Of a stretch of 14,898 nt of DNA, positions 3,255 through 14,898 are shown piece by piece; position 1 is the stretch's first letter; each line of letters opens with the position of its first letter. Location of the stretch: positions 1 through 14,898 of the forward strand of contig JALGVQ010000096.1 of assembly GCA_025774615.1 (NCBI GenBank). The letters run 5' to 3'. The position numbers and the translations under genes were made by a program. The notes under the pieces are model-generated. The model was not told the origin of the DNA, made no database searches, and saw nothing but the letters and a program-made list of their open reading frames with translations. This stretch comes from a bacterium. GTDB lineage: Bacteria; Blakebacterota; Blakebacteria; Blakebacterales; Blakebacteraceae.

Positions 3255-4874
3255 TCAGAAGAAGAGAAAGTTCGGTTCCGCGGCCCGGCTCAGGTAGTCG
3301 CTCAATTCCCGGTCGACCTCACCCCTGACCTCCGGAGGGACCATCTCCCTGAGGATGGTGGCCGGCGGGAACTCCCCCCTCCCTTCCCTATACCTGATCA
3401 GATCACGGTGCAGCACTCCCCGGTGAAAGAGATCCTCGAAGTATTCGGATATCTCCGGGTTCTGAAAGGTCGCGAAGAACGCCTGAGTCCGGTGGAATGT
3501 GAAGTAGTGGAGAGCATTGATCCGCACCTGCATCCCGAACGACCAGAGCAGGATCACCCCGATGATGATCGTTATCGGAGCCGCCACCCTTCTCGGCACC
3601 TTCAGGAGCCATTCACCCACTTCTATGCGCGGCAGGGTACCAATCAGCGCGATCGGCAGCAGATAGCGGGGACCGTAACACCATTCTCCGGCCCATGATG
3701 AGAAACAGGAGACTCCCACGAAGATCGCCCCGGCTACTGTGAGCAGGAAGAGCGCCTCCGGCCGGTGCCGCCTGAGGAAAGCCGGCAGTCCGAAGAGGGC
3801 GACCAGGAGCGGTGGCACATGGATGAACACGTTCGCGTTCCCCGGTTTGAACAGGAACGAGCTGACCGCCGTAAAAAAGTAAGAGATACCGAAGTGGTCA
3901 TGAGCCCGTCCGTCGGCGCCCAGCCACTGCCCGTACCCCGATGTGAAAGGCGAGCCGAACTTGATCTGATTCACCATGAGCAGCAGCACGACGATTGCCA
4001 CTGTCGGCACAAGCAGAGGCCGGATAAGCGACCGGATCCCTGCCTGGCTGCAGTTCGCCTGCCACCGTACCCGCAGTGGGGTGGTCCGCGGACCCGCTGA
4101 GAGGACGAAAAGCCAGACCACCGGGATGAGGATGATGAAGAAGAGCTTCATTAGCACCAGTACACCGAGCCAGACCGTCGCGCGGATCAGGTGCCGGCTT
4201 GCCACGGATTCCACTCCCTGATCTGATTCTGCCTCCCCTGCCTCCTCCCCTTCCCCCTCCCGCACTCTCAGGTAGCGGAGCAGATAACTGAGAAACGCCA
4301 CGAAGGGCACGACCTGGAATATCTCGAGACTCGGGGAGCGGAGGTAGTACCACACGAATGTCCCGTAGTAGAGAACCAGGATGAATCCGACTCTGATCAG
4401 TGACCGCTCCGTATAGAGCGATACGATGCGGTAGAGGAAGATCGTCGCGATGAGGGTGAGCACGATCGACCAGAGGTTCATCCAGACCAGCAGTGAGGTC
4501 GTCCCCGACTGGAATCCGATCTCCCCGCCGGTGAGTCGTTCCGCCAGCAGAGGAGGCAGAGAGAGAAGCGTATTCCCGATCCCGTATTTCGAGTAGAGCT
4601 TCCCGCTGGCTTCACGCTCGAAGAAATACTGCCCCTTCTGCGTCAGAAACGATTCGAGTTCCGGACGTGCCGATGGAGCGATCCCGATATCCCCGGAAGA
4701 AAGGAAACTTACAGCGGCGGCACGGGGAGCGAAATTATCGCCCGGATAGGTGAATCCGGGCATGGTCACGACATGGAAGATCGCGATGCCGAGCAGAAGG
4801 TAGAGGAGTGGCCGCTCTATCCGGGGGCTCTCAGACTGTCCAGTCGTTGATGTTGAGGAGGAGAAGGTCATCAT
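3255..4874 (-). CDS. Polytopic membrane protein, GT-C-like glycosyltransferase candidate
   Basis: This 539-residue protein has about ten hydrophobic segments, including roughly 23-38, 132-150, 160-176, 234-259, 285-302, 361-378, 383-400 and 450-468. An acidic residue (Asp46) lies in the long loop after the first helix, as in GT-C-fold lipid-phosphosugar glycosyltransferases. Two stretches are typical of that group: KYGIGNTLLSLPPLL (96-110) and WAGEWCYGPRYLLP (404-417). A cytoplasmic or loop segment at about 204-222 is rich in Glu and Gly. The C-terminal 70 residues are soluble and charged. The ATG overlaps the stop of the sulfatase by four bases (ATGA), so translation is probably coupled, and no strong ribosome binding site of its own is visible. 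Transfer of a sugar from a lipid carrier is inferred from the fold; donor and acceptor are unknown. It could equally be an uncharacterised membrane protein of this fold. Confidence 0.65.
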   Translation of the reverse strand: MMTFSSSTSTTGQSESPRIERPLLYLLLGIAIFHVVTMPGFTYPGDNFAPRAAAVSFLSSGDIGIAPSARPELESFLTQKGQYFFEREASGKLYSKYGIGNTLLSLPPLLAERLTGGEIGFQSGTTSLLVWMNLWSIVLTLIATIFLYRIVSLYTERSLIRVGFILVLYYGTFVWYYLRSPSLEIFQVVPFVAFLSYLLRYLRVREGEGEEAGEAESDQGVESVASRHLIRATVWLGVLVLMKLFFIILIPVVWLFVLSAGPRTTPLRVRWQANCSQAGIRSLIRPLLVPTVAIVVLLLMVNQIKFGSPFTSGYGQWLGADGRAHDHFGISYFFTAVSSFLFKPGNANVFIHVPPLLVALFGLPAFLRRHRPEALFLLTVAGAIFVGVSCFSSWAGEWCYGPRYLLPIALIGTLPRIEVGEWLLKVPRRVAAPITIIIGVILLWSFGMQVRINALHYFTFHRTQAFFATFQNPEISEYFEDLFHRGVLHRDLIRYREGRGEFPPATILREMVPPEVRGEVDRELSDYLSRAAEPNFLFF

Positions 4875-6790: not shown

Positions 6791-8125
6791 ATGCAGAACA
6801 GAACAGCCGCAAAGTTTTTCAACATGAAATCATCGGCTTCAGCCGTAATGGCAGTATTGCTGCTTCCCGCGGTGACGCTGGCCCAGCCGGGCAGCTACGA
6901 CCAGACGATCACTGCAGCGATCAGGTCGTGCGAGGAGACGATCATCGCCGCCCGACATCAGATCCATGCCAATCCTGAACTGGGGAACCGTGAATTCGAG
7001 ACGGCTGCCCTGGTCGCCGGACATTTAACCGCCCTCGGACTCGAGGTGAGGACCGGTGTGGCACACACTGGTGTTGTCGGGATCCTGCGCGGTGGCAAGC
7101 CGGGCCCTGTTGTCGCGCTCAGGGCGGACATGGACGCCCTGCCGGTTACCGAGGAGACCGATCTCCCCTTCCGATCCACGAAACGGACTACCTACAACGA
7201 CAGGGAAGTCGGAGTGATGCACGCGTGCGGGCACGACATCCACACCTCCATTCTCATGGGTGTCGCCTCGGTCCTGACCGACCTGAAGGAAGAGCTGGCC
7301 GGTTCGGTCCTCTTCATCTTCCAGCCCGCCGAGGAGGGTTCACCAGCCGGGGAATCGGGAGGCGCGAGTCTCATGATCGAGGAAGGGGTATTCGAGGGAG
7401 TCGAACCATCAGCGATCTTCGCACTCCACATCGATCCCCAGGTACCGGTGGGTGATATCATCTACACGGCCGGTCCAGCACTGGCCGCAAGCGACGGGTT
7501 CTCCATCACCGTGACGGGAAAGCAGACCCATGCCGCGAGGCCCCATACCGGTATCGACCCGATCGTGATGGCAGCACAGGTCGTCCTTGCCCTGCAGACG
7601 ATCCCCTCAAGGACGCTCGATCCTCTCGATTCATGTGTCGTCACCGTCGGCATGATCCACGGGGGTGAGCGTTCCAACATCATCCCGGAGAATGTCAGGC
7701 TCACCGGTACCGTTCGCTCATACAGCGATGATGTCCGCGACACCGTCGAGCGGCGGATGACCGAGATCGTTGAAGGTATCACGAAAGCGGGTGGCGGTTC
7801 ATACCAGTTGAACTATTCAAGGGGACTTCCTCCGACGATCAACGATCCCGCTCTGGTGAGATCGATGATCCCCACCCTGCAGGCGGCACTGGGGAGTGAT
7901 CATGTCATCGAGGGAGCACCATGGATGGCCTCGGAGGATTTCTCCTATTATGCCCGACTGGTGCCCGGATTCATCTTCTTCCTCGGCAGCCTCAAGGAGG
8001 GGACCGAGAGTGGTGACCTCCACAACCCCTCTATGCGAGCAGACGATTCTGCCATCCCGGTCGGTATCCGCGCCCTCAGCAACCTCGTGATCGACCGTCT
8101 GATGATGGAGGAGCGGGAGCGGTGA
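6791..8125 (+). CDS. Exported M20D family metallo-amidohydrolase
   Basis: This 444-residue enzyme of the M20D group (hippurate, indole-acetyl-amino-acid and N-acyl amino acid hydrolases) cleaves amide bonds with a two-metal centre. Residues 1-31 resemble a Sec signal peptide: basic start, hydrophobic core SAVMAVLLLPAV, then LAQ. The metal-ligand set is intact: Cys146 and His148 in HACGHDIH, Glu181-Glu182 in QPAEEGS, His213 in FALHID and His411 in DLHNPSM. The dimerisation (lid) domain runs from about 230 to 345, with its conserved HAARPHTGIDP motif. The ATG at 6791 has GAGAGG ten bases upstream; an internal ATG at 6824 lacks a site but would still leave a signal peptide. Its stop overlaps the next gene by four bases. 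Periplasmic cleavage of an N-acyl amino acid is inferred; the exact substrate is unknown. Confidence 0.9.
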   Translation: MQNRTAAKFFNMKSSASAVMAVLLLPAVTLAQPGSYDQTITAAIRSCEETIIAARHQIHANPELGNREFETAALVAGHLTALGLEVRTGVAHTGVVGILRGGKPGPVVALRADMDALPVTEETDLPFRSTKRTTYNDREVGVMHACGHDIHTSILMGVASVLTDLKEELAGSVLFIFQPAEEGSPAGESGGASLMIEEGVFEGVEPSAIFALHIDPQVPVGDIIYTAGPALAASDGFSITVTGKQTHAARPHTGIDPIVMAAQVVLALQTIPSRTLDPLDSCVVTVGMIHGGERSNIIPENVRLTGTVRSYSDDVRDTVERRMTEIVEGITKAGGGSYQLNYSRGLPPTINDPALVRSMIPTLQAALGSDHVIEGAPWMASEDFSYYARLVPGFIFFLGSLKEGTESGDLHNPSMRADDSAIPVGIRALSNLVIDRLMMEERER

Positions 8126-9444: not shown

Positions 9445-10254
9445 TTATGGCGGTGAGATGTAATCTCCGATGATCGAAGTGACTTCCAGATCGTCATATC
9501 CCGAATCCCGGTACCTGATCACCATGTTCCTGTCGAGCACCAGGTTGAGCGGGATGTAATACCCGTCGTATCGTTCCCAGAGTACTCCGTCGTTGTCGTC
9601 CAGGATCGGGAAGGAGAGGCCGAACTGGTCGGCCCAGTCTGCAGCGTCCCCGTCTATCATCATGCCGATGATCCGGAATCCCTGGTCTCTGTAATCGCTG
9701 AAAAGATCTTCAAGGAGTGAGGCCTCACTCTGACATGGTCCTCACCACGACGCCGCGAAATTAAGCAGGATGACATTACCTTCGTATGAGTAGAGGGAGA
9801 TCATGGCGTTGTTCTGATTCCGCGCCGAAAAATTCTCTGCGATATTGCCGACGTTGATCCCATAGATCTTGAACCTGATGGAGAGTGAAGGGTCGGAGGA
9901 TCCCTGCCCGTTTATCGCGTGTACCCGGAATGAATAATTCTCGTTCGGATCGACTTCAGTCACCGTGAAGGTCGTGATATCTGCTTCGACGGAGATGTGG
10001 TCCTGGAATCCCTCCGGACCGGGTGGATTCAGTTCAATCACGAATCCTGTTTCATCATCAGAATTGTCGACCCAGTTCAGGACGATACTGCTCACACTGC
10101 CGGCTTCAGCCCTGAGAGTGTGTGGTGGATCGGGAACATCGGGACCGGTTGTTCCATTGCATCCGGTCAACCCCAGGTACCCGGCAAGGGAGAACAGCAG
10201 CATGCTGGCGAGGCCGGCTGCCCGGATAGTGTGTCGTCGTTTTGATCCTGCCAT
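9445..10254 (-). CDS. FN3-thioredoxin lipoprotein, probable selenoprotein (UGA at residue 171)
   Basis: The frame runs 269 residues if the UGA at 9742-9744 is read through. Order: a lipoprotein signal with basic start and lipobox GLTGC (Cys32); a fibronectin type III domain (about 41-130, with SIVLNWVDNSDDETGFVIEL); and an AhpC/TlpA-type thioredoxin domain (about 135-269). That domain begins VGNIAENFSARN and the core strand is VILLNFAASW. The UGA then falls exactly where the first redox cysteine belongs, giving W-U-G-P-C with Cys174 intact. The remaining domain is normal in the same frame, with cis-proline Pro235 in YIPLNLVLDRN. The start at 10254 has GGGGGGAG eight bases upstream. The product should be anchored in the membrane, with its redox domain in the periplasm or at the surface. 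Alternatives are a nonsense mutation or a base-call error. SelA, SelB, SelC and SelD genes lie outside the window. Confidence 0.75.
9710..9733 (-). promoter_or_regulatory. Candidate bacterial SECIS hairpin
   Basis: The RNA from 9730 down to 9715 reads GAGTGAGGCCTCACTC: a perfect 6-bp stem with the tetraloop GGCC. Three more pairs (TCA with TGA) can extend it after a two-base bulge. The first loop G is the 18th base after the UGA. Bacterial SECIS elements, as known from published surveys, are small stem-loops with a G among the first loop bases about 16-37 nt after the UGA, and this fits near the lower limit. The element lies within the coding sequence, as expected in bacteria. Confidence 0.55.
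9742..9744 (-). other. In-frame UGA, proposed selenocysteine codon
   Basis: On the minus strand TGG TGA GGA CCA TGT reads W-stop-G-P-C, so the UGA replaces the Cys of a WCGPC redox site. Coding continues in the same frame for 98 more residues of thioredoxin fold. Other genes here (274-693, 6791-8125, 8122-9399) use UGA as a true stop, so a global code change does not explain it. Confidence 0.75.
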
Positions 10255-10262
10255 ACCGGCAT

Positions 10263-10270
10263 CTCCCCCC
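10263..10270 (-). promoter_or_regulatory. Ribosome binding site of the FN3-thioredoxin gene
   Basis: GGGGGGAG on the minus strand lies 8 nt upstream of the ATG at 10254. It sits inside the longer frame from a GTG at 10299 and decides for the later start, which also puts the basic signal residues (SKRRH) near the N-terminus. Confidence 0.7.
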
Positions 10271-10289
10271 TGTTTCCCGGTATATCGAT

Positions 10290-10334
10290 TCACAGACACG
10301 GATCACAGAATGACCCGGATCACAAGATATCACA
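10290..10334 (-). promoter_or_regulatory. Four TGTGA repeats upstream of the candidate selenoprotein
   Basis: On the minus strand TGTGA occurs four times in 45 bp (10334-10330, 10324-10320, 10307-10303 and 10294-10290). Two copies belong to a 9-bp direct repeat TGTGATCCG spaced by 17 bp. They lie 36-80 bp upstream of the start codon, all on one strand. TGTGA is the CRP/FNR-family half-site, but no inverted partner is evident, so the binding protein is unknown. I found no convincing promoter hexamers for this gene. Confidence 0.3.
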
Positions 10335-10374: not shown

Positions 10375-10403
10375 TTTACACCCGATCAGAACCTTTGTAC
10401 CAT
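10375..10403 (+). promoter_or_regulatory. Sigma70-like promoter for the 10447 gene
   Basis: TTTACA at 10375-10380 and TACCAT at 10398-10403 are separated by 17 bp and match the -35 and -10 consensus at five and four of six positions. Transcription would begin near 10410. This favours the start at 10447 over the ATG at 10402, which overlaps the -10 box. Confidence 0.4.
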
Positions 10404-10446
10404 GATTTCTGCGAAGAAGCCCACCTTATACCATGCGAGTATAAAG

Positions 10447-10969
10447 ATGAAGAGAACATTCCACCCTGCTCTTGCCGCTCTGTTCCTTCTGTTCTTCACC
10501 CTCGGCATGTCATCACCGGTGCAGGATGGCTTCGGGGAGGGATCAACAGCCCCGGAGTTCGAGATCACCCGAGAATGCTCCAGCTTTCATCGTCTTCTGG
10601 AAAGAGAGCTGTCCGAGCAATCGGCGCGCTGCTCCTCTCTTCAAAGCCATCAAGGATGCGTATGGTGAAAAGGTGAACCTGATCGGGGTGGTGACGGCTC
10701 CTCCGGAGAGGATCTCCGACTGGGCCGAGCAGTTCGAGACCAACTACCCGCTCCTCCCGAACAGCGACAAGTCATTGATCAGGGATTACGACCTCTCCCG
10801 TTCGATCACGACCTTTCAGATCGGGACCAACGGCAAGATCACCACGATCTTCGCCGGGTTCGGGTATGACGCCTTGAGCGCCCTGAACAAGGCGATGGCT
10901 GAAGCGGCCGGTGTCGACGTCGCCGAGGTCGACCTCAGCAGCGCACCCACCCGCACGACCTACGGCTGA
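10447..10969 (+). pseudogene. Frameshifted, shortened thioredoxin-like exported protein
   Basis: The N-terminal part (MKRTFHPALAALFLLFF, then GSTAPEFEIT) is a signal peptide and the start of a TlpA/ResA-like domain. It runs in the frame of the ATG at 10447 until about 10570. The rest (ENAPAFIVFWKESCPSNRRA to SAPTRTTYG) continues in the +1 frame to TGA at 10967-10969. Only about 15 residues separate the APEF and IVFW landmarks, where relatives have roughly 28, so an internal deletion that also shifted the frame is the simplest reading. The redox site is CPSN instead of CxxC, and the usual cis-proline segment reads SITTF. Both changes suggest lost or altered thiol chemistry. It is divergent from the FN3-thioredoxin gene, 192 bp away. 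Alternatives are an assembly error or +1 frameshifting near ACC CGA (10567-10572). A strong terminator follows. Confidence 0.6.
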
Positions 10970-12866: not shown

Positions 12867-12946
12867 CCGCTTCCCTCACTAAGGGGAGAGGAGATATGTT
12901 CGCAGGGCTTGAGAGAGCACCCGGCTGAAGGTGGTGATCGTCAGTG

Positions 12947-14898
12947 ATGGATACACAGCGTCGAAAACAGCACGGCTCCATGTGTGTTTCGAAGTACCGG
13001 CCAATCATCCTGCTGATCATGCTGGTTCTGACCCCGGTAACCGCGAACTCACAGTCCGCCTTCGACTTCACGCTCGATGACATCGACGGTACGCAGGTGA
13101 CTCTGAGCGAGTTCGCGAATGAGCGGGTCGTACTGCTCAGTTTCTGGGCAACCTGGTGCGTCCCCTGCAAAAAGGAACATCCCCACCTGCAGCGCTTTCA
13201 GGATGAGTACGGGGAGAAGGGACTGACCGTCCTCGCGATCAGCGTGGATGGACCGACGACGATCGCGGGTGTGAAGCAGTACATTTCACGGTACGGGTAT
13301 ACCTTCACGACCCTGCTCGACACCGACTCAGAGGTGCTCAGTCTCTACAACCCCCAGATTGTCCTCCCCTTCTCTGTGCTCATCGACCGGAGCGGCATGA
13401 TCGCGTCTGTGCACCATGGATATAGTCCGGGCGATGAGAACATGCTGGAGGAGAAAATAAGGGCTCTTCTCGATCAGCCGCCCAGCCAGCAGGTGGACGC
13501 GCTCTCGACGCATGTGAGCGAGGCGCTTCTCTACCGGCGCTTCACTGATGAAGGATACCTTGAGCGGGAGAGATCGGGGAGATCCTCCCAGATCATCAAC
13601 CAGGTTGATGTCAGTGTGACCAGATCCGTCTTCATCCTCGGCCTCCGTTTCGACTCGAATCTTGATTACTCACCCTGGCGTGATACCTGGACGATCGAAA
13701 AGAAATACTTCGAGATGAACCGTAGTGGATTCTCGATCCGACTGGGTGACTTCTACCATTCAATCGGTCGCGGCCTCTCCCTGAGCCTGCTGAAGATCTT
13801 CGAGGAAGAGGGCCTGGAATACATCATCGACACCACCATCAGCGGCGGAAAGATCGGGCTCTCAAGGGGTGCCTGGTCGGCTGACCTCTTCAGCGGGACT
13901 ATCCGCTCCCTGGACACACGATCGACCGACCGGATCAGCGGGAGCACGATCGGGTGGAAAAAGGACGATGTGGTTTCCCTGAACCTCTCACTCCTGACAT
14001 CGGACCTCGAGGAGAATACGATCTATGGAGTCAGTGAAGTAACGGTACAGACCGTGGGAGTGGACATACCGGCGCTTCTCTCCCCATTCAGGTTCTATGG
14101 TGAATTCGCCCGGATGCAGCATGGTTCCACAACCGACCACGCCCCGACCGGTCATGGTCTCTACATCGAGTCAGGATTCACGTCAGGGAACATATCGATT
14201 TCTCTGGAAATGAAGGACTATCTGGATTTCTCCTTCACTCACAACCGCCCGCCGACACTTGAGAGCGAGGATCTCGACATCCTCGCGTCACAGTTCGATA
14301 CCGACCTGGTCGCTGTCTCGGGTGTCGCGCTCCGGGTCGACCATTTCATCCCCACTATCACCACCCTGCTCTATGCCCGGTTCTCATACTTCGATGACCA
14401 TCCACTTGACCACCCGCTCTACGGTTCGTACCGGCGGATCGGCAGGCACGGCTATGCTGGTATCGAAAAGCGATTCGGGAACGGCGGCTATATCAACGCC
14501 CTGGCCGGTATACGAGATGAGAAGAATGCCACTCTGGTATTTCAGAACATGTCAGGCAGAACCGGGCATGGTCAGGTCAACCTGAACATCCCCCTGACAT
14601 CACGACTGAGCATTGAAGCTGACTGGAAGGGGAAACGATTCATCGGAGAAGATCTCAGATATTATGAGAACCGGTCGTTCCTCTCCCTGCACTACTCACC
14701 GGTTCTGGTACTCACGCTCTTCATGGACCGGAGCGACGATCCTGAGGTTGTGTTCTTCGAGGGACAGAACTCCTGGCAGGCCGTGCAGCTGGAGACGCGG
14801 ATCACTCCGGCGCACACTCTCCGTCTTTTCTGGGGCGCGACGAAGGGCGCGGTCAAATGCGCCGGTGGTGTCTGCCGTTACTTCCCCCCCTTCAAGGG
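12947..14898 (+). CDS. Thioredoxin (TlpA) domain fused to outer-membrane-type beta-barrel, 3' partial
   Basis: The frame is open from 12938 to the window end: 650 codons and no stop. A signal region (RPIILLIMLVLTPVTANSQ) precedes a complete TlpA-like domain (about 37-175) with the active site FWATWCVPCKKE (Cys71 and Cys74) and the expected proline in the VLPFSVLIDRSG segment. After a polar linker, residues from about 215 onward are beta-rich with alternating hydrophobics and frequent Tyr, Phe and Gly, as in a porin-like barrel. The stretch GFSIRLGDFYHSIGRGLSLS recalls the DUF6029 barrels of Bacteroidota, from memory. Near the end lies KCAGGVCRYFPPF, the only other cysteine pair in the mature protein (Cys638 and Cys643). 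GTG at 12944 is an alternative start. The likely location is the outer membrane with the thioredoxin domain in the periplasm. The fusion is unusual, and its partner is unknown. Confidence 0.75.
   Translation, partial: MDTQRRKQHGSMCVSKYRPIILLIMLVLTPVTANSQSAFDFTLDDIDGTQVTLSEFANERVVLLSFWATWCVPCKKEHPHLQRFQDEYGEKGLTVLAISVDGPTTIAGVKQYISRYGYTFTTLLDTDSEVLSLYNPQIVLPFSVLIDRSGMIASVHHGYSPGDENMLEEKIRALLDQPPSQQVDALSTHVSEALLYRRFTDEGYLERERSGRSSQIINQVDVSVTRSVFILGLRFDSNLDYSPWRDTWTIEKKYFEMNRSGFSIRLGDFYHSIGRGLSLSLLKIFEEEGLEYIIDTTISGGKIGLSRGAWSADLFSGTIRSLDTRSTDRISGSTIGWKKDDVVSLNLSLLTSDLEENTIYGVSEVTVQTVGVDIPALLSPFRFYGEFARMQHGSTTDHAPTGHGLYIESGFTSGNISISLEMKDYLDFSFTHNRPPTLESEDLDILASQFDTDLVAVSGVALRVDHFIPTITTLLYARFSYFDDHPLDHPLYGSYRRIGRHGYAGIEKRFGNGGYINALAGIRDEKNATLVFQNMSGRTGHGQVNLNIPLTSRLSIEADWKGKRFIGEDLRYYENRSFLSLHYSPVLVLTLFMDRSDDPEVVFFEGQNSWQAVQLETRITPAHTLRLFWGATKGAVKCAGGVCRYFPPFK

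Follow-up and report, generated by a model that had tools for sequence, protein, structure and literature searches.

In the window, the whole 14,898-nucleotide stretch of DNA analysed here, one gene has a single in-frame UGA (codon 171) that is very probably read as selenocysteine (Sec), yielding an exported redox lipoprotein with a fibronectin type III (FN3) domain and a TlpA-like domain, and this joint reading explains the data best. The Sec reading of UGA 171, judged from sequence comparison, is strongly supported: the genome holds the Sec machinery, an orthologue conserves the UGA, and hairpins follow the Sec codons of the clade as a set, all of which bear out the assignment made in the first-pass annotation. 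What appears to be new is the FN3-lipoprotein architecture, the catalytic type being already known.

A UGA codon at the catalytic position of an FN3-TlpA lipoprotein

Translation of the minus strand of 9445–10254 confirms the claim of a single UGA within a 269-codon frame (Table 1). The product starts with MAGSKRR and contains, in this order, the LTGC32 lipobox, an fn3 domain and an AhpC-TSA/Redoxin domain. Specifically, the UGA lies in the context AASW-U-GPCQSE, a ResA/TlpA-type motif in which it replaces the first Cys of W-C-G-P-C, and the Pfam AhpC-TSA/Redoxin match (residues 135–255, E 3.8e-19) runs across it, in line with the proposal that the UGA falls on the nucleophilic Cys with thioredoxin fold on both sides. 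The split expected from automated gene callers is also seen, as the ORF listing gives a 185-aa ORF (9742–10299) and a 72-aa ORF (9445–9663). No family was matched in an Rfam scan of the window.

Table 1. Positions of the gene and its features in the window.
Feature	Position	Strand	Basis
Selenoprotein gene (probable), FN3-TlpA lipoprotein	9445..10254	minus	269 codons, TAA stop, one in-frame UGA
Likely ribosome-binding site GGGGGGAG	10263..10270	minus	sequence; 8 nt upstream of ATG 10252–10254
Signal peptide and lipobox, residues 1–32 (...LGLTGC32)	10159..10254	minus	sequence, lipobox rule, predicted helix
Fibronectin type III domain, residues 42–127	9874..10131	minus	Pfam fn3, E 4.9e-12
TlpA/ResA-like thioredoxin-fold domain, ~residues 133–255	9490..9858	minus	Pfam, AlphaFold2, Foldseek
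Probable Sec codon UGA (U171), nucleophilic position of W-U-G-P-C	9742..9744	minus	UGA conserved in orthologue; column U/C
bSECIS-like hairpin gaguga-GGCC-ucacuc	9715..9730	minus	loop 17 nt after UGA
cis-Pro position P235 of thioredoxin fold	9550..9552	minus	at least 90% invariant column

Bacterial lipoproteins carry a signal peptide with the lipobox [LVI][ASTVI][GAS]C, a pattern that L29-T-G-C32 fits by inspection, and AlphaFold2 predicts a hydrophobic helix at residues 13–27. Most of residues 141–220 in the TlpA domain are modelled with a pLDDT of ~95; the FN3 region, where the alignment is shallow, is poorly modelled (pLDDT ~40). Across 14 aligned TlpA-type homologues, the only invariant columns are F166 and the U171 column, which is occupied by either U or Cys.

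Selenocysteine machinery and a single orthologue

The window is contig C141 of G000, a 3.3-Mb metagenome-assembled genome (MAG) of 324 contigs that is 82% complete. selA, selB, selD and tRNA-Sec, the genes to which the first-pass annotation had tied its proposal, are all found in this MAG. Specifically, selB scores 321 bits against a cut-off of 242, its 701-codon frame giving a 646-aa product with GTP_EFTU, SelB beta-barrel and two SelB winged-helix domains; selA scores 509 bits; tRNA-Sec scores 66 bits against a cut-off of 47, with a UCA anticodon assigned by ARAGORN; and selD scores 351 bits and has a UGA of its own in CAG-U-ASK, where SelD proteins usually carry Sec. Our sample of the phylum comprises four genomes (G000–G003), all of them incomplete MAGs. 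G001 also possesses selB, selA and tRNA-Sec, and G003 (63% complete) has selA, selD and tRNA-Sec, with no selB match at E ≤ 1e-30. In G002 (72% complete), selA, selB and tRNA-Sec were not found; it nonetheless has one UGA gene, encoding a deiodinase-like protein (contig C117, L057), and the missing machinery is probably due to incompleteness.

Within this sample, the full FN3 architecture occurs in one orthologue besides the window. This protein, from G001 in the same genus, is 50% identical, and its TGA falls on the corresponding codon (M-U-G-A-C); at such divergence, the shared position argues against chance. Its lipobox, AFSGC, fits the lipoprotein pattern less strictly. The orthologue lies on JALGWK010000198.1, a contig of the independently deposited MAG bacterium Meg22_46_Bin_213; Meg22-prefixed bins, of which Bin_213 may be one, were used in the description of new FCB phyla found largely in the Guaymas Basin (PMC9727166). 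The two contigs share a neighbourhood consisting of the Sec lipoprotein gene, a divergent Cys-TlpA-like gene, two genes of no assigned function, a NUDIX gene and a TlpA-DUF6029 gene. When GTDB was scanned for FN3-TlpA relatives, the G001 contig alone aligned with both domains over the UGA, and the other aligned matches were rejected as relatives for being FN3-only, spurious or Cys-TlpA only. A plasmid search returned generic TlpA/redoxin matches only.

Hairpins downstream of the Sec codons

Bacterial SECIS (bSECIS) elements have a 3–9 nt apical loop with a G in its first two bases, a 4–16 bp stem, a distance of 16–37 nt from the UGA and an MFE of at most −7.5 (PMC13188914). Of the 21 distinct Sec codons in the clade, 20 have downstream a perfect hairpin whose energy is −6 kcal/mol or lower and whose first two loop bases include a G, mostly at a distance of 16–17 nt. 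Only ~11% of background codons reach −6 kcal/mol, and among the 14 Cys paralogues not one catalytic Cys codon reaches even −4 kcal/mol. Synonymous-codon shuffles give a combined Fisher p of 4e-15, a value that overstates the strength of the result because the rows are partly related. The sole UGA gene of the scan without a bSECIS-like hairpin, FAYT-U-KEC on G000:C171 (L075), has its 3′ end cut by the contig end.

The window hairpin, with its 6 bp stem, GGCC loop and 17-nt distance, fits the bSECIS geometry; taken alone it is weak (−6.1 kcal/mol, synonymous-shuffle p ~0.08), and the 39- and 55-nt folds of the window show no significant structure, the 55-nt fold (−11.4, z ~0) being no better than shuffles. 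In the orthologue this hairpin is preserved, with a change in the last loop base alone, and is longer; its 39-nt fold (−20.5 kcal/mol, z −2.9) clearly lies within the bSECIS definition. The SECIS case therefore rests on the orthologue and on the set.

The weak hairpin of the window copy is one reason to consider that UGA 171 acts mainly as a stop, with a 170-residue FN3 lipoprotein as the main product and Sec inserted only under a plentiful supply of selenium. Incomplete read-through is common among known selenoproteins. We regard this alternative as unlikely, given that conservation extends over the entire TlpA domain after the UGA and that the hairpin of the orthologue is strong.

Selection and the pattern of UGA codons across the clade

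If a chance nonsense mutation had struck the catalytic Cys of a pseudogene, the downstream half should be decaying. NG86 comparison with the orthologue instead gives a dN/dS of ~0.23 both upstream (0.47/2.02) and downstream (0.32/1.38) of the UGA, values that are rough because dS is high and partly saturated; purifying selection thus acts on both halves, and the part after the UGA shows no decay. The neighbourhood is not free of broken genes or assembly faults: the adjacent divergent TlpA-like gene at 10402–10969 on the plus strand (FWKESCPSN) has a frameshift and lacks 38 bp after EFEIT relative to G001 (L025, ~990–1544), a frame break that is either a pseudogene or an assembly fault. The UGA itself, however, is common to both orthologues, which makes a pseudogene very unlikely, and the homologue comparison suggested earlier thus came out in favour of the Sec reading, with the UGA at the same codon and no decay behind it.

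The paralogues point the same way. A PF00578 scan of the four genomes gave 38 matches, of which 9 of 16 in G000, 7 of 15 in G001, 1 of 4 in G002 and 2 of 3 in G003 have one TGA each. These 19 TGA-bearing AhpC/TSA-fold matches represent 18 distinct genes or fragments, all with the TGA at the catalytic column, which again argues against a pseudogene. The motifs are TFVU in the peroxiredoxins, one of which is a PrxU (395 bits against an NCBIfam cut-off of 270); UPPC, UGPC, UGGC, UGSC and UGAC in TlpA-like proteins; TUPPF and TUPPY in deiodinase-like proteins (PF00837); and TUKEC in one further UGA gene. In G000, the nine comprise envelope TlpA-type reductases, two peroxiredoxins and two deiodinase-like proteins; besides the window gene they are L047 (C72, the PrxU), L051 (C244), L060 (C47), L062 (C51), L072 (C109), L073 (C213), L074 (C111) and L075 (C171).

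A sequencing or assembly error might be suspected in so fragmented and incomplete a MAG, and is extremely improbable given that the same TGA occurs in the independently deposited contig; additionally, the Thioredoxin_2 and FdhA-like matches of the same genomes contain not one internal TGA, which shows that the assemblies are not generally prone to stray stops. A code in which UGA stands for Trp, Gly or some other amino acid throughout the genome (codes 4/25) would also open the frame, and can be dismissed as scarcely credible: TGA is the stop codon of 7 of the 10 other window genes, TGA stops at the overlapping gene ends 4871–4874 and 8122–8125 refute it, internal TGAs fall only at catalytic Cys positions, and tRNA-Sec (UCA), SelA and SelB are present.

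Proposed mode of action

Under the Sec reading, SelB and tRNA-Sec (UCA) would decode UGA 171, directed by the stem-loop just downstream of it. The product would be exported and, as the lipobox suggests, lipid-anchored at Cys32, with the FN3 domain possibly serving as a spacer or contact module. By analogy with ResA/TlpA proteins, and from its motif and fold, Sec171 is expected to act as the nucleophile towards disulfides or related oxidised groups of the substrate, and the resulting mixed selenide-sulfide could be resolved by Cys174. A role in periplasmic reduction or repair seems more probable than one as an oxidase.

Relation to known families

UxxC selenoproteins with PF00578, cd02966 and PF08534 domains, and a UGC-type TlpA, appear in an inventory published in 2026 (PMC13188914). 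Its Prx-like (PF00578) and thiol-disulfide isomerase-like (cd02966) families have a downstream bSECIS, which the hairpin of the window gene resembles in geometry, and share the thioredoxin-fold domain of AhpC/TSA type and Sec at the first position of CxxC with the window protein, whose PF00578 score of 69.3 bits (gathering threshold 26 bits) and UGPC (UxxC) motif place it among the Prx-like UxxC selenoproteins. FN3 and a lipobox, however, go unmentioned for these families, and the window form is confined to one genus of the four-genome phylum sample. The words fibronectin and lipoprotein are absent from the inventory, which describes no family with FN3, and our search of the open-access literature found no bacterial FN3 selenoprotein. 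Of the novelty claimed in the first-pass annotation, the FN3-lipoprotein architecture thus holds for the literature searched, whereas the UxxC Sec-TlpA kind had already been catalogued.

ResA and CcmG/DsbE-type thiol-disulfide reductases are the top matches in NCBIfam HMM, PDB-sequence and Foldseek searches (ResA being best both by HMM and by structure), and the W-U-G-P-C-x-x-E motif and P235 fit the ResA/TlpA/CcmG reductase class, which shares W-x-G-P-C-x-x-E and the cis-Pro. Distinct from that class, the window protein has Sec for Cys, a fused FN3 domain and no E-x-P proline (E-A-S), and it scores 69 bits against the 170-bit cut-off of the ResA model NF002854, outside that family. Seleno-TlpA-like domains are also common to NF041054 (ResA-like WAxxUGC) and NF053656 (TUGYCR seleno/thioredoxin fold); the window protein differs in its WUGPC motif and UxxC spacing, and its scores (21 against 300 bits and 18 against 100 bits, respectively) are so far below the cut-offs that it is not a member of either. 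PrxU (NF040737), a Sec peroxiredoxin with a true representative on G000 contig C72, bears Sec in the same fold, whereas the window protein is of UxxC type without the Prx TxxU motif.

A selenium-rich, little-sampled lineage

The source lineage is Sec-rich and little sampled. Searching for a single fold and for SelD yielded ~10 Sec genes in G000, which is notable and not a record, as the largest reported bacterial selenoproteomes have ~60 genes. Because standard gene callers cut the window gene, at least eight other thioredoxin-fold genes and selD, annotation misrepresents the redox biology of the lineage. As an FN3-lipoprotein, the window protein brings a further architecture to the Sec-thioredoxin repertoire, and a small clade so rich in Cys and Sec paralogues would allow one to ask when and why Cys changes to Sec. 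Tentatively, and with somewhat less than even confidence, we suggest that the lineage may have converted much of its complement of thioredoxin-fold redox proteins to selenium, with the FN3-Sec-TlpA lipoprotein in a dedicated envelope redox network based on selenium. Elsewhere in the window, 12944–14896 on the plus strand encodes another TlpA-like protein (WCVPC), which is joined to a DUF6029 domain; it runs off the window and is conserved in G001.
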